Shown: in pieces, positions 52,840 through 63,440 of the stretch
How positions within the stretch are numbered: the stretch's first letter is position 1
How the letters are laid out: each line of letters begins with the position of its first letter
Assembly: GCF_017464355.1 (NCBI RefSeq)
Contig: NZ_JAFUAG010000041.1
Coordinates: forward strand, 1 to 64,000
DNA: 64,000 nucleotides
Direction of reading: 5' to 3'
Origin: Ruminococcus sp.
Lineage (GTDB): Bacteria; Bacillota; Clostridia; Oscillospirales; Ruminococcaceae
Position numbers and translations under genes: made by a program
The notes under the pieces: generated by a model
Databases searched by the model: none
What the model was told of the DNA's origin: nothing
What the model saw: the letters and a program-made list of their open reading frames with translations, nothing else

Positions 52840-54993
52840 TCATAGCATCTTTATGCCCATCATAGTCAGGTCATCGAACTGGGGCGCTTCGCCGACAAAC
52901 TTGTCTACCGAGGCCTTTACACCCGTCAGCAGTTCCTTGGGTGCTGCGTCCTTCATGGTGTTCATGGCTGCAAGAAGTCTGTCTGTGCCGAAAAGCTCAT
53001 TCGATGCGTCAGTGGCTTCAGGCACACCGTCAGTGTACAGGAAGAGCGTTCCGCCCTTTTCAAGGGTCATCTCATACTCCTTGTACTTTATGCCGTCCAT
53101 ACCGCCGATGACGAAACCGTGCTTGTCTTTGAACAGCTCAAAATCGCCGTCAGCCTTTCTTATAATGGGATATTCATGTCCCGCATTGGCAGCGGTTATC
53201 TTGCCCGTGGATATCTCCAATACACCGAACCATACCGTCACGAACATTTCTTCCTCGTTGTTCTGGCAGATAGCTGTGTTGGTCTGCTCCAGTGCCTTCG
53301 CAGGTGAACCGCCCATCATAGCGTAGTTGTTTATAAGTATCTTCGACATCATCATAAACAGTGCCGCAGGTACGCCCTTGCCCGAAACGTCCGCCATTAC
53401 CATGCCCAGATGATCGTCATCTATCAGGAAGAAGTCGTAGAAGTCACCGCCGACCTCCTTGGCAGGTGTCATCGAAGCGTAAATATCAAACTCAGGCCTG
53501 TCAGGGAAAGCAGGGAAGATGTTAGGCAGCATATCTGCCTGTATTCTCTGCGCCAGCTCCAGCTCAGTGCTGATACGTTCCTTCTCTGCGGTGATATTGG
53601 TGATATCCTGAATGTACTGCTTTGTCTTCTTTGATAGGTCATCGAAGGACTCAGCCAGTACCTGTATCTCGTCATTGGTGCGGTAGATGTCCTTCATCTC
53701 AAAGGTTTCGCCCGTCTTTCCGCTGTTTATCAGGCTGTTTGTCATTTCGGAGATAGGCTTGACTATCCTGTTGGCCACTGTCATTGCACCTATGGAACCC
53801 AGTGTGAGAATAACCGCTATCATGATGAATATCATCTGCTCAGAATGCTTTGCACCCTCGGAGAAAGTACCGGTCGCCTCATCGTTTATGCGGTCGAACT
53901 CATCTATCATCATCTTGGCAGGCTGTTCTGTTATATCCTTTTCGGTCACTGCCACAACTGCCCAGCCCACGGTGGTCATGGGAGAACCGGCCATGTAGTA
54001 GTCCTTGCCATTGACATTTACAGTTTCAACAGCTGTCCTGTCAGCAAGGGCAGAGCTTATGAAAGCAGCCAGATCCTTGTTTTCTGAAGCCCTCAGGTCT
54101 TCCGCCTGATCGGAAGTCATCACACTGAACAGCCCGTTGTTCTCGGGGGCAAATATTACCTGACCGTCGTTGTTTACCACAGCGATAAATCCGCCGTTGG
54201 CAGAGGACTGGTCAACATACTCCGCCATTGAATCAAGGAAAAGGTCAGCGCCAACTACAGCTATCAGCTCACCGTTCACATAAACAGGTGCGCAGCATTC
54301 AATGCCTACCTTGTCGGTGTAGGTATCTCTTTCAATGCCCGTGAAGTAAAGCCCGCCTGCCTCAACAGCCCCCGTGTACCAGGGTCTTTCCCTTACAGGG
54401 AAAGTAGTCACGTTGCCGTTCTCATCGAACTTGTTGGCCGAATTGTCGTCCACGCAAAGCAACGTGCCGTCAGCCAGCCCGATAAAGCAGTTGCTGAGGT
54501 AGTCCGAGTTTTCGCACATAGCTATCATGGTGCTGCCCATGTGTGCCGCAACGCCCAGGTATTCAGAGCTGTTTACATCCACACCTTCTTCAGCCAGCAC
54601 CTGTGCCGTCATCACACCGTTGTTGGCCTTGTCGGGGGGATAGTAAGGGTAAGGCTCAAAGCTGTCCCTGTGTTCAAAAAGCCCCTCCGCAAGAGTTTGC
54701 AGCGTGGCCACATCGCTTCTCATCTCCGAGAACATATCGTCAGCGATGTAGGCCTGCAAGGCCGTGGTCTTCGTCATGGTGGAATTCACCACTGCCGACA
54801 TGGTCTCACCCGAAACCTTTTCTATAGCTTCCTGCTGTTCAACAGCAGCCCCCGAAACTATCTTGGTCAGCCGCTTGCTCTGGTATACCGACACTGCGCC
54901 GAACACACCGATTATAAGCAGCATGAAGATCAGCACAAGATTGAGTATCTTCTGCTGCAATCCTCCAAAAGTCATTCCCAGTAACTTTTTCAA
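52840..54993 (-). CDS. Membrane SpoIIE-family phosphatase with Cache sensor
   Basis: 717 residues from a TTG at 54993, chosen because GGGGGT lies six bases upstream; the next upstream candidate is also TTG and lacks such a site. TM1 (about 15-37), a double Cache outer sensor (45-380, with FPVRERPWYTGAVEAGG and GADLFLDSM), TM2 (about 388-408), HAMP (409-465), a short coiled coil and the PP2C-like domain (480-717) with EVGGDFYDFF, GMVMADVSGKGVPAALFM and LYTDGVPEA, the metal-binding aspartates. It should dephosphorylate STAS proteins in response to an outside ligand. Co-transcribed downstream of an RsbW-like kinase. Confidence 0.88.
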   Translation of the reverse strand: MKKLLGMTFGGLQQKILNLVLIFMLLIIGVFGAVSVYQSKRLTKIVSGAAVEQQEAIEKVSGETMSAVVNSTMTKTTALQAYIADDMFSEMRSDVATLQTLAEGLFEHRDSFEPYPYYPPDKANNGVMTAQVLAEEGVDVNSSEYLGVAAHMGSTMIAMCENSDYLSNCFIGLADGTLLCVDDNSANKFDENGNVTTFPVRERPWYTGAVEAGGLYFTGIERDTYTDKVGIECCAPVYVNGELIAVVGADLFLDSMAEYVDQSSANGGFIAVVNNDGQVIFAPENNGLFSVMTSDQAEDLRASENKDLAAFISSALADRTAVETVNVNGKDYYMAGSPMTTVGWAVVAVTEKDITEQPAKMMIDEFDRINDEATGTFSEGAKHSEQMIFIMIAVILTLGSIGAMTVANRIVKPISEMTNSLINSGKTGETFEMKDIYRTNDEIQVLAESFDDLSKKTKQYIQDITNITAEKERISTELELAQRIQADMLPNIFPAFPDRPEFDIYASMTPAKEVGGDFYDFFLIDDDHLGMVMADVSGKGVPAALFMMMSKILINNYAMMGGSPAKALEQTNTAICQNNEEEMFVTVWFGVLEISTGKITAANAGHEYPIIRKADGDFELFKDKHGFVIGGMDGIKYKEYEMTLEKGGTLFLYTDGVPEATDASNELFGTDRLLAAMNTMKDAAPKELLTGVKASVDKFVGEAPQFDDLTMMGIKML

Positions 54994-54997
54994 ATGA

Positions 54998-55402
54998 TTA
55001 CCCCCAGTTTTTTTCAAGGGTCAGTATATTCTGACCGTCACGGTATTCGTATTCCACATTGTCCATGGATTTTTTTACCATGAATATCCCCAGCCCGCCA
55101 ATGGCACGTTCCTGCGCCGAAAGGGTTATATCAGGATCCTCCTTTGCCAGCGGGTCATAGGGCACGCCCCTGTCATAGAAGATCATCTTTGCTTTTCCCT
55201 TCGACACCTCAGTTTCTATGACCGCCATGCCGACCTCAGGGGTGTAGGCATAATGTGCGATGTTAACGAATATCTCTTCCAGCGAAAGATCTATCTGCAT
55301 CTGGGTCTTCATAGGGCAGTCAACGCTCTCAAGCTGCTCATCTACGAAGGCGGTCACTGCATCAAGGTTTTCTAACCTGGCTTCAATTTCCAATCTTTTC
55401 AT
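54998..55402 (-). CDS. RsbW-like anti-sigma factor / serine kinase
   Basis: 134 residues from the ATG at 55402, with AGGAG six bases upstream; the longer frame lacks a site. A GHKL ATPase of the HATPase_c_2 type: N-box LSLEEIFVNIAHYAY with the Asn, G1 region IFYDRGVPYDPL and G2 region IGGLGIFMVKKSMD. All nucleotide-binding motifs are intact. Such proteins phosphorylate STAS antagonists and bind sigma factors. Its stop lies just before the phosphatase start, so the two are one operon. Confidence 0.85.
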   Translation of the reverse strand: MKRLEIEARLENLDAVTAFVDEQLESVDCPMKTQMQIDLSLEEIFVNIAHYAYTPEVGMAVIETEVSKGKAKMIFYDRGVPYDPLAKEDPDITLSAQERAIGGLGIFMVKKSMDNVEYEYRDGQNILTLEKNWG

Positions 55403-55498
55403 ACTTTTCTCCTGTCTGTCCTTATGATCTCCCTTGCTCGGGGGAGGACTTTTATGGAACGTTTTGAATATGGCAATTTGTCTGTTAACCATATATTA

Positions 55499-55527: not shown

Positions 55528-55713
55528 CTGCCGGCGCGGTAATTTTACATATTTTGTATGCTTGAACAAATCCCCGCAAGCATTCTTGTTTATAATGCGA
55601 GGTCTTGCCTCAGCGGCAAATTTTCATGTCCGTATTTGCCGTTTCGGTAAATGACAACGGCGATTTATTGTGGTAAAATATTAAAAAAAGAATTATCCGC
55701 GGGGTGCGATAGC

Positions 55714-56211
55714 ATGAAAAAAACTACACTGAATAAAAAACTAAATATATCTTATCCCGACAGCTTCACCGTCCTAAGTGAAACGGAGCTTGCAGATGCC
55801 CCGTCCTGGGTAAGGCCCAGCCTTGGCGTAAAGTCCACCGAGGAGGAACTGACCATCTATGTGGTATGCGCAGGTTCAGTCAAACCCGCCCTTTTCACAA
55901 GCTTTCTCATGGGCATGAAGCTGCTGGGCTTTGAGAAAAACTGCCGCCGTGAGATAGAGCAGTACAAACGCGAAAAGGAGCTTACCGAAAGCGTCTGCGG
56001 TGTAACTGCCAGAGGGTTCGAGTTCTCAGGCAGTGACCCCATAACCGATGAGCCTGTGTACGGTGAGGTCGTATGCTTTGCCTTCGGCGGGAAAATCTAC
56101 ATCGTCCAGTACATAGCCCGCACCAGTGACAGGTTTTACTGCCGACAGGCCTTTGAATGTACCATAAGCTCCATTTCCCCCGTAGAGGAAACAAACTCCT
56201 CGGACAGATGA
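55714..56211 (+). CDS. Hypothetical protein
   Basis: 165 residues from the ATG at 55714 with GGGGTG upstream. Soluble, mixed alpha/beta: SYPDSFTVLSETEL, a single hydrophobic helix region (FTSFLMGMKLLGFEK) and FAFGGKIYIVQYIARTSDRF near the end. No family recognised, though the strand order recalls small lipoprotein-like or PsbP-type folds without a signal peptide. It sits alone, divergent from the kinase-phosphatase operon, and ends at its own terminator. Confidence 0.6.
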   Translation: MKKTTLNKKLNISYPDSFTVLSETELADAPSWVRPSLGVKSTEEELTIYVVCAGSVKPALFTSFLMGMKLLGFEKNCRREIEQYKREKELTESVCGVTARGFEFSGSDPITDEPVYGEVVCFAFGGKIYIVQYIARTSDRFYCRQAFECTISSISPVEETNSSDR

Positions 56212-56261: not shown

Positions 56262-56900
56262 TTATGCGGTAATAAGCTTCTCGATTATTATCTGGGTAGA
56301 ATCGCTTTTCAGCCATACCTTTACATCGTCAGCGATGTTGGCTATTATGGACTTTTCCAGCTCGTCCCATTCCTCAGAGGCCTTTGAAACTGACTCGGAC
56401 AGATTGCTGCGGTAAGCCATGAGCGACCACAGCCCTGCACCTATGGCGGCGCCGCTGGCCATTTCGCTGCCGTGTACGCCCATGTAGTACCAGCTGTCAG
56501 CCGCGGGGTCGGTAAAGGTGTAAACGCCGTCGGCGTTGTGCTGTATACTCATGCGGAACAGCTCCCTTATCTTGCCCATGATACCTTTTGCATTCTCGTT
56601 TTTGCCGCTGGTGGCCACCGAGAGCAGCTTTTCCTCCTGCAGGCCGTCAGCTGATTTCATGGCAGAAAGACAAATGCGGCACATTGTGCCCTTGTCGATC
56701 CTGTCGCTTTCCAGCCAAAGCTCACCCCTGAAGTTATCCATGATACCGTGTACCATGCTGACAGTTTCCTCGGTCAGCAGGCGGATATGCTTGGCGCCTC
56801 TGCCTTCGATGCCGTTGTACTCGCAGAACCTTTCCGCGGCCTGCATAGCATCTTCCTTGCCCGCCAGGTCACTGGTTATGGTGATAACGTCGGTCTTCAT
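56262..56900 (-). CDS. Degenerate kinase-like partner of STAS protein, paralog A
   Basis: 212 residues. The EE-containing helix HIRLLTEETVSMVHGIMDN resembles the N-box helix of RsbW-type ATPases, but the metal-binding Asn is replaced. ATSGKNENAKGIMGKI follows where a glycine-rich lid would be, and no DxGxG is visible. The C-terminal signature WDELEKSIIANIADDV (178-193) is shared with the paralogs at 57902 and 59229. It lies 13 bases after a STAS gene. A role as an ATP-independent partner-switch protein is inferred. Confidence 0.7.
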   Translation of the reverse strand: MKTDVITITSDLAGKEDAMQAAERFCEYNGIEGRGAKHIRLLTEETVSMVHGIMDNFRGELWLESDRIDKGTMCRICLSAMKSADGLQEEKLLSVATSGKNENAKGIMGKIRELFRMSIQHNADGVYTFTDPAADSWYYMGVHGSEMASGAAIGAGLWSLMAYRSNLSESVSKASEEWDELEKSIIANIADDVKVWLKSDSTQIIIEKLITA

Positions 56901-56913
56901 TCGATTATCCCCC

Positions 56914-57210
56914 TTACTTGATGGTCAGTATATCGGAAAATCCTGTAACTTCAAATATCTCCAGAATATCCTCGCTGCTGCCCGTAATGGTCATATTGCC
57001 CTGCTTGTTCATCATCTTCTGTGCAGCCAGCAGCACGCGCAGACCTGCGGAAGAAATGTATTCCAGCTGAGAAAAATCAAAGGTCAGGTCAGTAACGCCG
57101 TCAAGGCATGACTTTATCTCTTTTTCAAGGTCGGGGGCAGTGGAGGTATCCAGTCTTCCCTCAAGGGCTATTGTCAGCTTGCTTCCGTTTGCGATTTTGT
57201 TGATCTTCAT
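56914..57210 (-). CDS. STAS-domain anti-sigma factor antagonist, copy 1
   Basis: 98 residues with AAAGGAG upstream. A complete STAS fold: LTIALEGRLDTSTAPDLEKE, LTFDFSQLEYISSAGLRVLL with the phospho-acceptor Ser in SSAGLR, and the end DILEIFEVTGFSDILTIK. SpoIIAA/RsbV-type proteins bind an anti-sigma kinase when dephosphorylated. It is nearly identical to copy 2, a recent duplication. It is the first gene of an operon with kinase-like paralog A. Confidence 0.92.
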   Translation of the reverse strand: MKINKIANGSKLTIALEGRLDTSTAPDLEKEIKSCLDGVTDLTFDFSQLEYISSAGLRVLLAAQKMMNKQGNMTITGSSEDILEIFEVTGFSDILTIK

Positions 57211-57306
57211 ATAAGGTCAACTCCTTTCAAAAAATAAGTACATTATCCGTCCTGCCCAAGGCTGCAGCAGCACCTGACAGGTCTTGTTATCAGATATCAT
57301 ACCTCT

Positions 57307-57335
57307 ATTTTACCAGTTTTTTTCGCCGCTGTCAT
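57307..57335 (-). promoter_or_regulatory. Promoter of STAS copy 1 operon
   Basis: Minus strand -35 ATGACA (57330-57335), 17-bp spacer, -10 TAAAAT (57307-57312) in the context CTGGTAAAAT, shared with the promoter at 58556. The remaining gap to 57515 shows nothing else. Confidence 0.65.
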
Positions 57336-57515
57336 CAGCCTGAGACGAAAATAAAAAAATTTCGTATATATGAACAAATATCATGGCAGACTATTCAGCA
57401 TTATCACAAAAAATTATATGTTTTAATTGGTGTATTTAGCATTCAATGACAAATAATTTAACTAAAGCTTGTCTAGATACCACAATTTTTTCAGGTTACA
57501 GCCTTCTACATAACC

Positions 57516-57548
57516 AAAAACGGCGCTGTGCCATAAGCACAGTGCCGT
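57516..57548 (-). terminator. Terminator of the STAS copy 2 operon
   Basis: Minus-strand stem ACGGCACTGTGC / GCACAGCGCCGT with a TTATG loop, followed by TTTTTGG. Confidence 0.8.
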
Positions 57549-57558
57549 CATATACAGA

Positions 57559-57855
57559 CTACTTTATGGTGAGTATATCGGAAAATCCTGTTACCTCAAA
57601 TATCTCCAGTATATCATCGCTGCTGCCTGTAACGGTCATGCTGCCCTGCTTGGTCATCTGCTTCTGGGCGGTCAGCAGTACGCGCAGCCCTGCGGAGGAT
57701 ATGTACTCAAGAGCAGAGAAGTCGAAGGTCAGTTCGGTTATGCCCTCAAGGCTTGTCTTGATCTCTTTCTCAAGGTCTGGTGCGGTGGAAGTATCCAGCC
57801 TGCCCTCAATGGAGATAGTCAGCTTGTCTGCATTTTTGTTCTTGTTGATAGTCAT
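57559..57855 (-). CDS. STAS-domain anti-sigma factor antagonist, copy 2
   Basis: 98 residues from the ATG at 57855, nine bases after AGGAG; the TTG nine bases earlier is less likely. Same fold and phospho-acceptor LEYISSAGLRVLL as copy 1, with about four fifths of residues identical by eye. It is the second gene after kinase-like paralog B, the reverse order of the first pair. Either this pair or the first arose by duplication within the island. Confidence 0.92.
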   Translation of the reverse strand: MTINKNKNADKLTISIEGRLDTSTAPDLEKEIKTSLEGITELTFDFSALEYISSAGLRVLLTAQKQMTKQGSMTVTGSSDDILEIFEVTGFSDILTIK

Positions 57856-57901
57856 GAGATCCAACTCCTTTAAAAACTAAGCTATTTCTGCGTTTATCAT
57901 A

Positions 57902-58495
57902 TCAGAAGGTCTTTTTGACCACGATATCCACCTTGCCCCCGAGAACGCCTACTACCACGTCATCGGCTATGTTTGCTATTATGGACTTTTCCAGCTCGTC
58001 CCATTCCTCAGCATTGTCAGCTTTTGTCTGCTCGTCACCGAAGCCGTTCCTGTATGCGCTCAGTGTCCAGATCATGCCCTCTTCAAAATCACAAAGCCCT
58101 GTGGTCCAAACACCGTAGGGGTCGCTCTGCTGAAGCTTAGCGCGGGTGCTCATCATCTGTTCCACCGCCGCAGTTATCCTGCCCACCAGGCCTTTGGCAG
58201 CCGCATTCTTTCCGCTTGAAGATACCGACAGCACCTTGTCGATGTCAATGTCCTTGTCATCAGGTGTCACCTCTATGTGCAGCTCGTAATCCTTCTCAGT
58301 GTTCTCTATCCAGAATTTTCCGCTGCCGTATATGAGCAGCTGGGGCAGCAGACAGATAAGCTCCTCTGAAAGCAGCCTCAGTCTGAGCACCGACCTGCGG
58401 TCCAGCTGATTATATCTCCCGACCTTTTCAGCCTCTGCGGGTATGCCGCAAAAATCCTCCTGAAATTTGGTCAGCTTGTAAATGTCGCTTTTCAT
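57902..58495 (-). CDS. Degenerate kinase-like partner of STAS protein, paralog B
   Basis: 197 residues with CGGAGGAAA upstream. Helix RLRLLSEELICLLPQLL matches the N-box helix of RsbW-type proteins, but the Asn position is Leu. Then comes a beta segment FWIENTEKDYELHIEV and SSSGKNAAAKGLVGRI. The C-terminal WDELEKSIIANIADDV (165-180) is identical to that of paralog A. It has its own consensus promoter. Likely the partner of STAS copy 2; true binding target unknown. Confidence 0.7.
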   Translation of the reverse strand: MKSDIYKLTKFQEDFCGIPAEAEKVGRYNQLDRRSVLRLRLLSEELICLLPQLLIYGSGKFWIENTEKDYELHIEVTPDDKDIDIDKVLSVSSSGKNAAAKGLVGRITAAVEQMMSTRAKLQQSDPYGVWTTGLCDFEEGMIWTLSAYRNGFGDEQTKADNAEEWDELEKSIIANIADDVVVGVLGGKVDIVVKKTF

Positions 58496-58555
58496 TTATA
58501 TTTCCTCCGATCAAACTTTTGCCTTTTGGCAGACAGCACGGTCTGTCTATATATA

Positions 58556-58584
58556 ATTTTACCAGTGTTCCAACTGAATGTCAA
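58556..58584 (-). promoter_or_regulatory. Promoter of paralog B / STAS copy 2 operon
   Basis: Minus strand -35 TTGACA (58579-58584), 17-bp spacer, -10 TAAAAT (58556-58561) in the context CTGGTAAAAT. The gap 58585-58790 is AT-rich and shows no other feature. Confidence 0.75.
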
Positions 58585-58790
58585 TTGCCTTTGAGGCAAA
58601 TATTTTTCTTTTGAAAGATTTTCACAAATCCCGCCCCTGATATTTGTGATGTTGATGTAAAAATATTGTTTCTGACAGCAGTGTTATCTGCTTTATTTCA
58701 GCGGTTTTTCGGCCTTTGCTTTGCAATTGCCTAAAATTACCACCAAAATTTGTGCAATTATACGAAAATTATTTTAACAATTTATGAGTG

Positions 58791-58819
58791 TGGACTTATT
58801 CTTAAAAATATGATATAAT
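58791..58819 (+). promoter_or_regulatory. Promoter of the third STAS pair
   Basis: -35 TGGACT (58791-58796), 17-bp spacer, perfect -10 TATAAT (58814-58819), 47 bases before the STAS ATG. Confidence 0.65.
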
Positions 58820-58866
58820 GAGCGGAGCTGAATTTGTTTATAATATGATGAAAGGAAAGGTGTTTT

Positions 58867-59181
58867 ATGGAAATTACTATAAATAAAGAAACCGACCGTG
58901 CTACAGCGGTCGTCGAAGGCAGAGTTGATACCACTAATTCTTCCGAGTTTATGCAGGATCTGTCGGAGGTGGTAGAAAGCTGCTCTGTGGTAGTGCTGGA
59001 TTGTGCAAAGCTTGAATATATTTCTTCTGCAGGCCTGAGAGTGCTGCTTTCTGTCCACAAGGCAATGGCAAGAAAAGACGGATTTTTCTTCGTTGAAAAT
59101 GTCAGCAGGGATATTCTTGAAATATTCGAGATCACAGGCTTCTCCAGGATACTTACCATAAACAGCGGTAATGAAAAGTGA
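58867..59181 (+). CDS. STAS-domain anti-sigma factor antagonist, copy 3
   Basis: 104 residues with AAAGGAAAGG upstream. More diverged than the other two but keeps VVEGRVDTTNSSEF, KLEYISSAGLRVLLSVHKA with the phospho-acceptor Ser, and DILEIFEITGFSRILTI. It is the first gene of a rightward operon with kinase-like paralog C. The divergence suggests it may serve a separate input or target. Confidence 0.9.
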   Translation: MEITINKETDRATAVVEGRVDTTNSSEFMQDLSEVVESCSVVVLDCAKLEYISSAGLRVLLSVHKAMARKDGFFFVENVSRDILEIFEITGFSRILTINSGNEK

Positions 59182-59228
59182 TATACCTTACTTAATATAT
59201 TATACTTGATCTTGACGGGAGGGTCTAT

Positions 59229-59798
59229 ATGAAATCAAGTGTCCTCAGACTAATGGGCAGAAGCAATGCCAACGGTCTTATGAAAAATGCATACAATGAT
59301 ACTATCAAGATAATCCTTAAGGAAACCGACAAGCTTTCCAAGGCAAATGAACTGAACGATAAGCAAGCTATGCATATGCGCCTTCTGGTGGAGGAAACCA
59401 TATGTATGCTGCCTGAGATACTTCAGTACGGCGACGGTACTTTCTGGATCGACAATTTCTATCAGAAGTATGAGATACATCTCCGTGTCAGACCAAACGA
59501 TGTTGACAGCAAGGTCAACGGTGTGGTGCGTTCTTCCGACCCGTTCCTCAAAAAGGGTATCCTCCGCAGGATATGCGCAGCTTTTGACAGGGCTGTTAAT
59601 GAGGGCAGGGACAAGAAGGGCACCATGGATAATTGGTCGCTGCTCAGCTATATCGACAGCGTTAAGCAAAGCGGCAAGAACAAAAACCTTGACGCCTGGG
59701 ACGAGCTGGAAAAGTCGATCATAGCTAATCTGGCTGATGATGTTACGGTTTCCACCGTTGATGATGAGATAGAAGTAGTCGTCATCAAGGAATTCTGA
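59229..59798 (+). CDS. Degenerate kinase-like partner of STAS protein, paralog C
   Basis: 189 residues with GGGAGGG upstream. Same plan as paralogs A and B: helix MRLLVEETICMLPEILQYG with Met in place of the N-box Asn, FWIDNFYQKYEIHLRV, a changed lid region (FLKKGILRRICAAF), and WDELEKSIIANLADDV at 157-172. It starts 47 bases after STAS copy 3. The signature tail is retained although the rest has diverged, so it is probably the functional core. Confidence 0.7.
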   Translation: MKSSVLRLMGRSNANGLMKNAYNDTIKIILKETDKLSKANELNDKQAMHMRLLVEETICMLPEILQYGDGTFWIDNFYQKYEIHLRVRPNDVDSKVNGVVRSSDPFLKKGILRRICAAFDRAVNEGRDKKGTMDNWSLLSYIDSVKQSGKNKNLDAWDELEKSIIANLADDVTVSTVDDEIEVVVIKEF

Positions 59799-59977: not shown

Positions 59978-61741
59978 TCATGTCAGTTTCCAGCTGTCTG
60001 CTGTAGCCTGTTCTTTCCAGAGGACAGCATATCTTCCGCCCTTTGTCAGCAGTTCATCGTGGCTGCCTTCTTCGGTTATCCTGCCGTTGTCCAGCACGAT
60101 GATGTCATCTGCATTCATCACCGAGCGCAGGCGGTGGGCTATGACCAGTACGGTCTTGTTCTTAACAAGCTCGTCTATGGCACGCTGTATCAGCACCTCG
60201 TTCTCGGGGTCAAGGCTTGCGGTAGCTTCGTCGAGAAAAACTATCGGCGCATCTGAAAGTATTGCCCTTGCAATGGAGATACGCTGCTTTTCGCCGCCCG
60301 AAAGGGTCGAGCCGCCCTCGCCGACCATGGTCTCGTAGCCCTCGGGCAGTGAGGTTATCAGGTCGTGGCAGGCCGCCGCCCTGGCCGCTGCCACTATCTC
60401 CTCGTGGGTGGCATCAGGTCTGCCTATACGGATATTTTCTTCGATAGTGTCGCGGAAAAGGTAAACGTCCTGAAATACCATGCTTATCTTAGAAAGCAGG
60501 TGTTCCTGTGTCATGGAGGTTATAACTGCCCCGCCAATGCGTATCTCGCCTTTCTGTATATCCCAGAAACGTGCCAGCAGCCTGGCAATTGTGGTCTTGC
60601 CCGAACCCGAAGAACCCACCAGTGCCACGAACTTTCTCTCGGGTATATCAAAGCTTATTCCCCTGATGACCTCGTCTTTGCCGTCGTAGGCAAAGTGAAC
60701 GTCCCTGAAGGAGATATCGCTTTTCTCCGTAAATACAGGGGGCTGTGTGACAGCCAGTTCCTTTTCGGCTTTAAGGGCTGAAAGCTTTTCGATACACTGG
60801 TTTATCCTCGCCAGACTTATCACGAAAACGAACAGCTGCATTATAGGTTCATATACCTGCAGTGCCGCCAGCAGACACATTATGTAGAAAAAGGGAGTTA
60901 TCTCTCCCGCAGAAAGCAGATATGCCCCCACGCCCATGACAATGCTTATGCCCAGGAAAAGTATGGCTCTGCCGTACATGGAAACTGCCCCGCCTGCCTT
61001 CTCCTGCTTTTTGGAATCGTCCCGCAGCCTGGCAAAGCTGTTTTTCAGCCCCTCGAAAGCACTGCCTGTTCTGTCGTAGGCCTGCAAGGTGGTTATGCCC
61101 CCTGCGTATTCGATGACATTGTCTGCGGTCTGCTGCTGTATGGCCAGCAGTTCGCTGCTGGTATCTGCCACCCGTCTGTAGCTTATCACCGCAAAGGGTA
61201 TGGCCAGGGGGATCACTACGAACATTGCAAGTGTCATCTTAATATTGAATATACTCAGTACCACCAGGGCTATGAGCAGCCTTATCAGTATGACGGTGCC
61301 GTTGCCCACCACGCTGGAGGACAGGTTCTCTATCTCCTCATAGTTCCTCATCATCAGGGTCGATATCTCACCTGCGTCATGGTCGGCAAAAAATCCCATG
61401 GGCAGAGTTTTCAGCTTGTCGCCCAGCCTTAGCTTATCCTCCTGCTGTGCCGAAACGTGCCCCACGCATATATCCAGATATGACTTTCGCCTTACAATGG
61501 CATAAGCAATGGTCTGCGCCAGAAGTATCCCCGCCAGCACCCAGAAGGACTTCTGCTCATAGGCCTTGGTCTTGTCAAGCACAGGTGCCAGGAAATAGTA
61601 CACCGCTATCATCATTATGCTTGAGGGTATCGAAGCCACTAAGCTGTCAAAGAACAGCCATGCTATGAATTTACCGTATTTTTTGCTGTCACCGTAGGTT
61701 ATGGTATCCCACCATACGGCAAGCCCGGAACGTTTATCCAT
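59978..61741 (-). CDS. ABC exporter half-transporter (TMD-NBD fusion), second subunit
   Basis: 587 residues with GGTGGAG upstream. Six TM segments in the first 330 residues, then the nucleotide-binding domain with Walker A GSSGSGKTT, signature STLSGGEKQRISIARAI, Walker B IVFLDEATASLD and the switch in VIAHRL. All key residues are intact. Its start overlaps the end of the upstream half-transporter by eight bases, so the two should form a heterodimer. Drug, lipid or peptide export is likely; the TetR gene upstream suggests inducible efflux. Confidence 0.9.
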   Translation of the reverse strand: MDKRSGLAVWWDTITYGDSKKYGKFIAWLFFDSLVASIPSSIMMIAVYYFLAPVLDKTKAYEQKSFWVLAGILLAQTIAYAIVRRKSYLDICVGHVSAQQEDKLRLGDKLKTLPMGFFADHDAGEISTLMMRNYEEIENLSSSVVGNGTVILIRLLIALVVLSIFNIKMTLAMFVVIPLAIPFAVISYRRVADTSSELLAIQQQTADNVIEYAGGITTLQAYDRTGSAFEGLKNSFARLRDDSKKQEKAGGAVSMYGRAILFLGISIVMGVGAYLLSAGEITPFFYIMCLLAALQVYEPIMQLFVFVISLARINQCIEKLSALKAEKELAVTQPPVFTEKSDISFRDVHFAYDGKDEVIRGISFDIPERKFVALVGSSGSGKTTIARLLARFWDIQKGEIRIGGAVITSMTQEHLLSKISMVFQDVYLFRDTIEENIRIGRPDATHEEIVAAARAAACHDLITSLPEGYETMVGEGGSTLSGGEKQRISIARAILSDAPIVFLDEATASLDPENEVLIQRAIDELVKNKTVLVIAHRLRSVMNADDIIVLDNGRITEEGSHDELLTKGGRYAVLWKEQATADSWKLT

Positions 61742-63440
61742 TTTTCTCCACCTTTCTCATTGACCAGCTGTCACGGCGGTCATTGGCATTTACCATATTT
61801 CGGTAAAGCTCGCAGTTTGCCATAAGTTCATCGTGTCTGCCCATGGCTTTCAGGCAGCCCTTGTCCATTACCAGTATGTTGTCCGCATTCTGTATGGTAG
61901 TCAGCCTGTGGGCTATCATTATTACCGTCCTGCCCTTCGAGAGCTTTGAAAAAGCGTCCTGTATTTTGGACTCATTCTCTGCGTCGGCATAAGCCGTGGC
62001 TTCGTCCAGCACGACTATTGGCGCATTTTTCAGTATGGCTCTTGCTATGGCGATACGCTGCTTCTCGCCCCCCGAAAGCCCTGTGCTGTCCGATACAACA
62101 GTGCTGTAGCCCTCAGGCAGCCCCACGATAGTTTCGTGGATATTCGCAGCCTTGGCCGCCGCAACTACTTCTTCGATAGAAGCCTTGTCATTGCCCATGC
62201 GTATGTTCTGCTCGATACTATCGTTGAAGATGAAAGAGTCCTGAAAAACATAGGCTATGTTCTTTACCAGTTCTGCATGGGTGATCTCTTTTATGTCCAC
62301 ACCGCCTATTTTTATGGAACCGCTGTCGATCTCGTAAAAATGCAGCAGCAGCTGGGCGATAGTTGATTTTCCTCCCCCCGAAGGTCCTACCAGCGCATTG
62401 CAGCTGCCTTGCGGTAAGTTAAAACTAACTCCATCGCAGGCTTTAACGCTGCTGCCCGGGTAAGCGAAGGATACCTCATCAAAGGTGATACCAAAGCTTT
62501 CGGGCTTTCTGCCCTCGCCCACAAGGGCTATCTCAGGTTCAGCCAGCAGGTCGTCTATGCGCCTGAGACCTACGTTTATCTTGGTGCTGTCAATGCTGAC
62601 ATTCATCATGTTCTCCAGTGGTTCCTTAAGACCTGCGCACACCACAAGGAAGAATATCACCTTGGGCAGCACCTCACTGTAGCTTGCGCTGTTGTTCAGC
62701 ATTATTATTGCCGCAGGCAGCAGGAACAGCACCTGCGCCCCGAAGAATGCGTAGTATAGCCCCATGCCGTTGGCGTTGTAGTAAGCGGTGTCGTGTACAG
62801 CCTTGGTGAAATCGTTCATGTCACGCTCAAACCTCTTAAAAGCATTGGTCGTTCCCCCGAATATCTTTATCACCGACATACCGTGTATGTACTCGATGAT
62901 AGTGCCCTCCATTTTAGCCTTGCTGTCGGCCATGTTTTTCTGGTGGGCGGCGCCGTCAGGCTTTTTCAGCGCCATGGCCAGTATGATGAATGAGCATATG
63001 ATAGGCAGCAGCGATACAAGGGTCAGCCGCCAGTCAACTATGAGAAGCACTACAATGGTCAGCAGGGGAGTTGCGATAGCCGCCGATACCTCACACATAC
63101 TGTGGGCGATGAAGCCCTCTATCTGCTCGACATCTTCGATGAGCAGCTTCTTGATAGAACCCTGAGTGTTGGCCGTATAGTACCCCGAGGATATCTTTCC
63201 CATTTTCTCCATGAGCTTCATGCGCAGGTCGTATAAAATATCAAAAGCCGCCCCGTGGGAAAGCATGGCCGAGGCATAGGCGCATACCCCGTAAAGCAGT
63301 GCGCTCACCGCTGTTATGACCACAAGCAGCTTAACACTGCCAAAGCTGAATTTTTCACCTGCCGAATAGCAGCGGATCAGTTCCCTGAGTATGCTGTAAA
63401 TGGTGAAAAATGGCACTATCTTGAATACGCTTGACAGCAC
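61734..63440 (-). CDS. ABC exporter half-transporter, first subunit, interrupted near 5' end
   Basis: 568 residues if a GTG at 63440 is used. TM region then NBD with Walker A GPSGGGKST, signature TGLSGGEKQRIAIARAI, Walker B VVLDEATAYAD and VMIAHRL. The natural start is the ATG at 63536, with AAGGAGGGT four bases upstream and overlapping the TetR stop, but codon 19 is TAG (63480-63482). The frame continues on both sides with family-like sequence. So the gene is either inactivated, restarted at the GTG, read through, or affected by a sequence error. Confidence 0.8.
   Translation of the reverse strand: MLSSVFKIVPFFTIYSILRELIRCYSAGEKFSFGSVKLLVVITAVSALLYGVCAYASAMLSHGAAFDILYDLRMKLMEKMGKISSGYYTANTQGSIKKLLIEDVEQIEGFIAHSMCEVSAAIATPLLTIVVLLIVDWRLTLVSLLPIICSFIILAMALKKPDGAAHQKNMADSKAKMEGTIIEYIHGMSVIKIFGGTTNAFKRFERDMNDFTKAVHDTAYYNANGMGLYYAFFGAQVLFLLPAAIIMLNNSASYSEVLPKVIFFLVVCAGLKEPLENMMNVSIDSTKINVGLRRIDDLLAEPEIALVGEGRKPESFGITFDEVSFAYPGSSVKACDGVSFNLPQGSCNALVGPSGGGKSTIAQLLLHFYEIDSGSIKIGGVDIKEITHAELVKNIAYVFQDSFIFNDSIEQNIRMGNDKASIEEVVAAAKAANIHETIVGLPEGYSTVVSDSTGLSGGEKQRIAIARAILKNAPIVVLDEATAYADAENESKIQDAFSKLSKGRTVIMIAHRLTTIQNADNILVMDKGCLKAMGRHDELMANCELYRNMVNANDRRDSWSMRKVEKNG

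Follow-up and report, generated by a model that had tools for sequence, protein, structure and literature searches.

STAS antagonists beside a degenerate GHKL-fold family in Ruminococcus: a candidate partner-switching variant with a possible non-sigma output

What STAS antagonist, RsbW-like kinase and SpoIIE phosphatase genes control where no sigma factor accompanies them is an open question, and it is raised in a concrete form by a stretch of 64,000 nucleotides from a Ruminococcus sp. (positions 1-64,000 of contig NZ_JAFUAG010000041.1, in a genome of 3.48 Mb), hereafter referred to as the window. Three STAS genes (STAS1 to STAS3) each lie there beside one paralog of an unnamed family (at 56262, 57902 and 59229), for which DEG is used as a working label (DEG1 to DEG3, Table 1). 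These three pairs had been picked out in an initial annotation of the DNA, and all six open reading frames (ORFs) proved to be open at the positions given there. The DEG family is a concrete candidate for the reader of the STAS signal, built on a degenerate kinase fold, and on balance we favor a partner switch in which STAS is read by a pseudo-GHKL DEG protein acting as receptor or output module, often without a sigma factor.

DEG is predicted to have the GHKL fold of SpoIIAB and RsbW with a degenerate nucleotide site. The AlphaFold2 model of DEG2 (predicted local distance difference test score, pLDDT, 85.7; predicted template-modeling score, pTM, 0.81) was compared with the PDB by Foldseek, where the best match had an E-value of 3.6e-3 at probability 1.00 and the target-normalised TM scores among the top matches were 0.53-0.72. 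UsfX-RsfB (8ih8), SpoIIAB-SpoIIAA (1th8) and RsbW-RsbV (6m36, 6m37) stood near the top, and the SiaB structure 6kko was also found (E 0.11). Another model was made of a STAS-DEG chain belonging to a Lachnospiraceae metagenome-assembled genome (MAG) and matched SpoIIAB with an E-value of 7.8e-4; this match must come from the DEG half because the STAS half matches SpoIIAA and RsbV. The GHKL fold expected for the paralogs is thus borne out by two models from different species, and the proposed check by structure prediction of a paralog alone returned anti-sigma kinases as the best matches of DEG2. In the model of DEG2, a strand, a helix, the N-box helix and two strands are followed by an inserted helical region that replaces the G1 box and the lid, by a last helix (EEWDELEKSIIANIADD) and by two final strands. 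Judged by its position in this predicted fold, the conserved tail corresponds to the helix after the point where the G2 box has been lost. The tail is present on all three window paralogs as the initial annotation described it; a role as a STAS-binding or STAS-specific signature was considered and not kept, given this place in the predicted fold and the partial recruitment effect described below.

The sequence motifs were counted in an alignment of 85 DEG members. Each residue of the EE pair (E44 and E45) is conserved in 84 rows, with a gap in the remaining one, while the kinase N-box asparagine is absent from all 85, where its position is taken by methionine (66), leucine (18) or isoleucine (1). 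The G1 (DxGxG) and G2 glycine motifs were not found in this alignment and are present in the linked kinases. An RsbW-like EE helix in paralogs that lack the N-box asparagine and any DxGxG motif had been claimed from the window alone, and it holds across the family. Strongly kept are SxSGKN, FWIE, W148-S, EEWDELEKS, AD and a final lysine, with N97 and the WDELEKS residues conserved in 84-85 of 85 rows. The scan of a contig collection that supplied 120 relatives, of which 80 were kept, used six search patterns with EEWDELEK among them, so the invariance of this motif is inflated, and members recruited by hidden Markov model (HMM) do vary at the tail (e.g., DEWDEMEHS, EAWDDLERS and DDGLERS). DEG1 to DEG3 match no Pfam or NCBIfam family. 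None of 73 members had a convincing family match in these two collections, and none matched the PF13581, RsbW or SpoIIAB models (E ≤ 0.1 for Pfam, ≤ 0.01 for NCBIfam). The weak matches were scattered and unrelated in Pfam (best E 0.0034, at most two members per family) and unrelated in NCBIfam (best E 0.0048, one member per family).

The association with STAS genes extends well beyond the window. Linkage was scored for genes on the same strand within 300 bp of DEG, and kinases and phosphatases were counted with freshly built models. Before the loci were counted, duplicates (L001-L004, L101, L106, L111, L113, L119-L122 and L161) were removed together with the yardstick loci of the window's own genome (L123-L142, and L223-L241 where already fetched), and one DEG ORF shorter than 100 amino acids (in L156) was excluded. 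The 196 remaining copies comprise 185 distinct sequences, with repeats such as L005/L085, L006/L146, L009/L090 and L182/L220. STAS is linked to 123 of these 196 copies, and a further 20 have a kinase or phosphatase only. By set, the STAS-linked copies number 3/3 in the window, 55/82 in the genome contigs, 13/26 in the genus, 11/17 in the family, 26/36 in the order, 10/27 in the class and 5/5 in the phylum. The loci of this linkage set contain 153 STAS ORFs, whereas the STAS density of the window's genome predicts about 3.7 for all 1.29 Mb of loci. Co-occurrence with STAS genes in other genomes is supported by these counts. A fold unrelated to GHKL proteins, combined with a lack of STAS genes nearby in other genomes, had been named as the outcome that would speak against the whole proposal; the models and the linkage counts went the other way on both points.

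Among the 63 contig-scan loci of at least 8 kb, 47 contain STAS and 16 combine DEG, STAS, kinase and phosphatase. In 22 of the 47 neither kinase nor phosphatase was detected, which makes STAS the tightest partner of DEG. Complete modules also occur in which STAS is followed by a fusion of five transmembrane segments, SpoIIE and HATPase and then by DEG (L016 by Pfam; L018 and L021 alike), and in several class- and order-level loci a long ORF with a kinase-like tail lies directly upstream of DEG. Since STAS stands just beyond such an ORF in L016, L018 and L021, some STAS genes may have escaped view. Of the 85 small STAS ORFs in the loci, 82 keep the phosphosite motif SS[AS]G, two carry ASAG instead and the last (L060) is without the region.

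Indications of an output come from fusion proteins. Four MscS-type channels carrying a C-terminal DEG were read: one of 1300 amino acids from a Solobacterium MAG (L054; MS_channel_2nd 1.2e-14, DEG independent E-value 8.3e-62) and three shorter ones (L254, L255 and L256; MS_channel_2nd 2.7e-13 to 1.5e-15, DEG 1.2e-21 to 5.2e-28). In L215, DEG is followed by a glyoxalase domain (5.8e-6), and L216 is alike by sequence; in both, a STAS gene lies about 1 kb upstream, and L215 has in addition a SpoIIE-type gene just downstream. Tandem double DEG proteins are encoded in L117, L211, L213, L214 and L257, in keeping with dimers. A fusion of a MATE transporter with HATPase stands beside STAS and DEG in L009. 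A similar MATE efflux protein of 582 amino acids in the window's genome ends in an RsbW-like kinase domain (C8:48690-51910, in L239 and L125; MatE 4e-26, HATPase_c_2 8.5e-13), and a small STAS gene is encoded on the opposite strand at a distance of about 1.2 kb. An ABC transporter ATPase whose C-terminal extension looks kinase-like by eye, with no Pfam match there, precedes a decayed DEG and STAS (L156:694-1986). Three proteins of about 390 amino acids in the window's genome (L140, L141 and L142, on contigs C8, C47 and C11) appear by eye to join an N-terminal STAS to a phosphotransferase-like remainder, and a protein of similar make-up in L008 matches Pfam APH.

A second group of candidate outputs is formed by NHLP-type peptide export operons. 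An NHLP-type part was found in 12 of 205 DEG loci, in L060 only as a piece of 60 amino acids at the locus edge, and ABC1 in nine against 0.4 expected (one ABC1 scores above the cut-off in the window's genome); some of these loci are close kin and not independent. In L023, NHLM_ABC1 (935.8 bits, cut-off 853.3) and NHLM_ABC2 (736.7 bits, cut-off 709.4) are followed by STAS, DEG, a short NHLM_HlyD-like gene that begins at the DEG stop (41.3 bits, below the cut-off of 156.2) and a kinase. The same parts occur in L025 and L028, and L148 and L164 have an ABC2-like gene, STAS, DEG, an HlyD-like gene and a kinase. The order in L019, from a Treponema MAG, is SpoIIE, STAS, DEG, an ORF of 369 amino acids that is HlyD-like by eye and ABC1 (1002.7 bits), while L257 has ABC1, ABC2, DEG, STAS and a kinase. 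DEG lies next to HlyD-like and ABC1 genes in L087, L144, L250 and L252, with SpoIIE just upstream in L144. In two loci (L243:2130-2426 and L245:2196-2474), short ORFs that by eye have a GG-type leader motif occur close to STAS and DEG and may encode export substrates. The window's genome has a row of its own (C15:50781-55964, L241), headed by a lone STAS gene and continuing with a short HlyD-like ORF, an NHLP-type C39 ABC exporter and, by eye, an NHLM_ABC2-like ORF; no DEG was found in this row. A word search of the 2010 paper on the NHLP family (PMC2887384) met none of the terms "anti-sigma", "sigma factor" and "STAS".

Sigma factors, the targets of the classical switch, are few around DEG. 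No PF04542 match (E ≤ 1e-3) is present at positions 1-64000, in line with the earlier remark that no sigma factor gene is in view, and the nearest one seen is the gene of SigK about 2.7 kb beyond the window end. SigK is a sporulation factor and is not known as a target of a STAS switch. With models from the sigma factors of the window's genome, genes for extracytoplasmic function (ECF)-like sigma factors were found in 5 of 205 DEG loci (L088, L089, L213, L245 and L257), and a model of five non-ECF sigma factors of that genome found none in the loci. Sigma genes are not enriched, five being found in the 1.29 Mb where 7.8 are expected from the density in the window's genome. These counts bear on a classical switch, in which DEG would be an anti-sigma factor that has dispensed with kinase activity and holds a sigma factor encoded elsewhere (e.g., of the ECF type) until unphosphorylated STAS pulls DEG off. 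Such an arrangement would suit the nearest folds of DEG, which are those of anti-sigma factors, the 21 sigma-70 region 2 matches in the window's genome and the ECF-like genes just listed, above all that of L213, which lies about 60 bp upstream of a tandem DEG followed by STAS. An anti-sigma role may therefore apply to some DEG members. As an account of the family it is rather unlikely, as the sigma genes fall below expectation, the non-ECF model had no match in the loci, the window contains none, and the channel and enzyme fusions do not fit it.

In the reading that we favor, the dCache-SpoIIE phosphatase and the sole stand-alone RsbW-like kinase would set the phosphorylation of STAS1 to STAS3, as their families suggest. 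Unphosphorylated STAS would then bind the neighboring DEG, to judge from linkage and fold, and DEG, having lost the ATP motifs, would not phosphorylate it, so that a stable and presumably ATP-independent complex could form. This complex, rather than a freed sigma factor, would alter an effector joined to DEG or linked to it in an operon; candidates in relatives are the MscS channels, the NHLP peptide exporters and a few enzymes, and a corresponding effector may exist in the window's genome. More tentatively, the whole may be viewed as a sigma-free switch wired to membrane transport, whose pseudo-GHKL part gates the fused MscS channels and controls NHLP exporters from within their operons, which was duplicated and attached anew to various effectors among gut Clostridia and in Treponema, and in which the three diverged DEG proteins of the window share one kinase. 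We hold this extension to be possible but doubtful, the more so because no STAS was seen near the MscS-DEG fusions. The suggestion that the degenerate relatives act as sinks is not favored, since the MscS-DEG and DEG-glyoxalase fusions and the STAS-DEG pairs with no nearby kinase gene fit an output module better.

Several observations weigh against this reading. Structurally, no PDB match to the DEG2 model reaches an E-value of 0.001, and the best ones have root-mean-square deviations of 6-9 Å. Homology to kinases at the level of sequence was looked for with little result: a PDB sequence search with DEG had no match at E ≤ 10, and the hhalign comparison with 15 kinases was weak (E 0.0061, probability 6%), with EE aligned on EE. 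When STAS and DEG of L077 were modeled as one chain through the native stop (78 aligned rows; pLDDT 79.8, pTM 0.64), STAS folded well and so did most of DEG, parts of its insert excepted; the linker is disordered (pLDDT 35), and the relative placement of the two halves is not confident. As to context, 53 of the 196 DEG copies have neither STAS nor kinase or phosphatase within 300 bp, where many loci have short flanks, often of only 1.5 kb. The genes adjoining DEG vary widely, with 82 Pfam families among 101 neighbors. One fixed effector beside DEG was sought among them and dismissed, the commonest families being ABC_tran (8), MatE (6) and HD_5 (5). No STAS was found in the stretches of 5.0-12.6 kb retrieved around the four MscS-DEG fusions, which tells against a local STAS partner for these proteins, and the window DEGs themselves carry no fused effector. 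STAS1 and STAS2 are 81% identical and stand beside very different DEG proteins (31-33% identity between DEG1 and DEG2), which makes specificity within each pair doubtful. Finally, the distances of DEG and STAS correlate across 110 pairs (Mantel r 0.54, against a maximum of 0.23 in 999 permutations), but in a set of 19 triples the DEG-kinase correlation (0.53) is about as high as that of DEG and STAS (0.56), so coevolution does not single out STAS.

This last result would suit a role in which DEG regulates the intact kinase through a heterodimer, or competes for STAS as a decoy or sink, without having a separate output. The GHKL anti-sigma kinases are known as dimers, and the kinase lies in the same operon as DEG in several loci. 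RsbW3 of Mycobacterium smegmatis is described as acting by a heterodimer with RsbW1 (PMC10950880). Nevertheless this explanation seems unlikely, given that the 22 of 63 long loci mentioned above pair STAS with DEG and show no kinase or phosphatase, that MscS-DEG fusions make little sense for a pure kinase decoy, and that three long-diverged paralogs suggest distinct outputs. A further alternative is that DEG is not dead at all, the EE pair, the SGKN loop and the WDELEKS helix forming a rebuilt site for another ligand or for phosphate transfer. The near-complete conservation of E44, E45, N97 and the WDELEKS residues would agree with such a site, as would the helix that, by homology, starts where the G2 box would face the nucleotide. 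However, SGKN is lost throughout the DEG3 clade, WDELEK is lost in three of the four MscS-fused DEGs (L054 keeps it), and the tail invariance is subject to the recruitment bias and the variation among HMM-recruited members noted above; a rebuilt site is accordingly judged improbable.

The distribution of DEG reaches beyond the genus. With the window's genome included in each sample, the share of genomes with DEG was 16/29 for the genus, 16/247 for the family, 37/394 for the order, 30/391 for the class and 5/398 for the phylum (genomes at least 90% complete). In another genus of the same class 46 of 61 genomes are positive, and records from Treponema and Synergistales also carry DEG. Matches number up to six per genome, some being pieces of a single gene, and on plasmids there was one weak tblastn match, on a Butyrivibrio plasmid. 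The closest relatives of the window proteins come from MAGs of Ruminococcus sp., and an identical DEG is shared by one of these MAGs and a genome from the same genus. In a tree of 114 rows, DEG1 falls in a clade of 12 rows (support 100/100) with rows from other genomes and DEG3 in a clade of four (100/98) with L094b, L107 and L109, while DEG2 lies at an unresolved fork among L005-L008 and their kin, within a larger group to which the DEG3 clade belongs as well. A recent triplication of one STAS-DEG cassette was considered and rejected on these three separate places, each DEG being nearer to rows from other genomes. The near identity of STAS1 and STAS2, set beside the distance of DEG1 from DEG2 in the tree, likewise indicates that the pairs are not three recent copies of one.

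The genes of the island are collected in Table 1. On the minus strand the order is DEG2-STAS2-STAS1-DEG1, and the three DEG proteins are 30-38% identical in pairwise comparison. All three STAS ORFs match PF01740/PF13466 and the anti-sigma-factor-antagonist superfamily model. The kinase and phosphatase genes overlap on the same strand beside the island. Their nearby presence, with the kinase intact, had been read from the sequence and is confirmed by the PF13581 and SpoIIE matches and by an alignment with other linked kinases, in which the N-box, G1 and G2 residues are conserved. The coding start of the kinase is probably an internal ATG near 55402, which coincides with the start of 10 of the 14 other sequences in the alignment.

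Table 1. Genes of the STAS/DEG island and the adjoining kinase and phosphatase, in window coordinates.
Feature	Coordinates	Strand	Description
DEG1	56262-56900	-	212 aa; adjoins STAS1; ORF without Pfam or NCBIfam family, predicted degenerate GHKL (anti-sigma-fold) protein
STAS1	56914-57210	-	98 aa; single-domain anti-sigma-factor-antagonist type; SSAG phosphosite motif; PF01740 1.4e-15; TIGR00377
STAS2	57559-57864	-	PF01740 5.1e-15; start likely an internal ATG at about 57855
DEG2	57902-58495	-	197 aa; predicted degenerate GHKL protein; AlphaFold2 model made
STAS3	58867-59181	+	104 aa; single STAS domain; PF01740 1.2e-17
DEG3	59229-59798	+	189 aa; most divergent paralog; without SGKN motif, WDELEKS and ADDV kept
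RsbW-like serine kinase (HATPase_c_2)	54998-55492	-	PF13581 2.9e-19; motifs intact
PP2C phosphatase, dCache sensor and SpoIIE domain	52840-55017	-	SpoIIE 2.3e-48; dCache_1 1e-19

The window's genome has ten PF13581 matches, and the only short ORFs among them are the window kinase and SpoIIAB. The latter belongs to a separate SpoIIAA-SpoIIAB-SigF-like operon, in which SpoIIAB scores above its model cut-off and SigF below. A single stand-alone kinase outside sporulation is what the idea of one intact kinase serving several STAS proteins calls for on the side of the genome. Other genes lie around the island. Between the kinase and DEG1, in opposite orientation, is an ORF of 186 amino acids (55651-56211, plus strand), of which no relatives were found among the 80 contig-scan loci. 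A pair of ABC exporter half-transporters (59978-63440, minus strand) lies in convergent orientation to DEG3 without necessarily being linked to it, and next to the pair a gene that is TetR-like by eye straddles the window end.

Among known systems, SpoIIAB, RsbW and UsfX (GHKL, PF13581) are nearest to DEG, which resembles them in predicted fold and element order, in the EE at the N-box helix, in a final helix ending ..DDV before two strands, and in linkage to STAS and SpoIIE-type phosphatase genes. It departs from them in lacking the N-box asparagine, DxGxG, the G2 box and a PF13581 match, in the helical region inserted between strand 3 and the last helix, in having no enrichment of sigma factors nearby, and in its fusion to channels and an enzyme domain. 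A switch with a non-sigma target is known from SiaABCD of Pseudomonas aeruginosa, where a sensor PP2C phosphatase and a kinase set an antagonist-like protein (PMC7647112, PMC8457831). The window system has the same three kinds of component and a proposed non-sigma output, and SiaB is among the fold matches; however, the window phosphatase scores 69.6 bits where the SiaA model sets a cut-off of 700, DEG has no diguanylate cyclase as a fixed partner (GGDEF adjoins a DEG in L091 and is outside the 25 commonest families of the 101 neighbors), and the SiaABCD abstracts name no DEG-like component. HsbA-HsbD, also from P. aeruginosa, offers a precedent for a STAS protein with a non-sigma partner, an anti-anti-sigma protein being described there as binding HsbD, which is a diguanylate cyclase and, unlike DEG, not of GHKL fold (PMC5085249). 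RsbW3 comes close to the role proposed for DEG, as a kinase-fold relative described as working by protein binding and not as an anti-sigma factor; it has high homology to RsbW1, whereas DEG is a separate, degenerate family adjacent to STAS (PMC10950880).

In titles and abstract openings of the open-license PMC literature, no description of the DEG family was found under degenerate GHKL-STAS or STAS-SpoIIE-kinase-transporter terms, and none of the matches listed for NHLP with STAS describes it. Compared with partner switching in general, the module of the window has the STAS protein with its phosphosite motif, the kinase and the PP2C phosphatase, while a sigma target was not found in the window and is not enriched in the loci. 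If the proposal is true, an enzyme fold has been turned into a signaling adaptor, and the MscS-DEG and DEG-glyoxalase fusions together with the NHLP operons make its output testable on single proteins. Taken together, DEG is a real, unnamed family within a real genetic module, which the comparison suggests to be a variant of partner switching whose output side is suggested by its fusions and operons.

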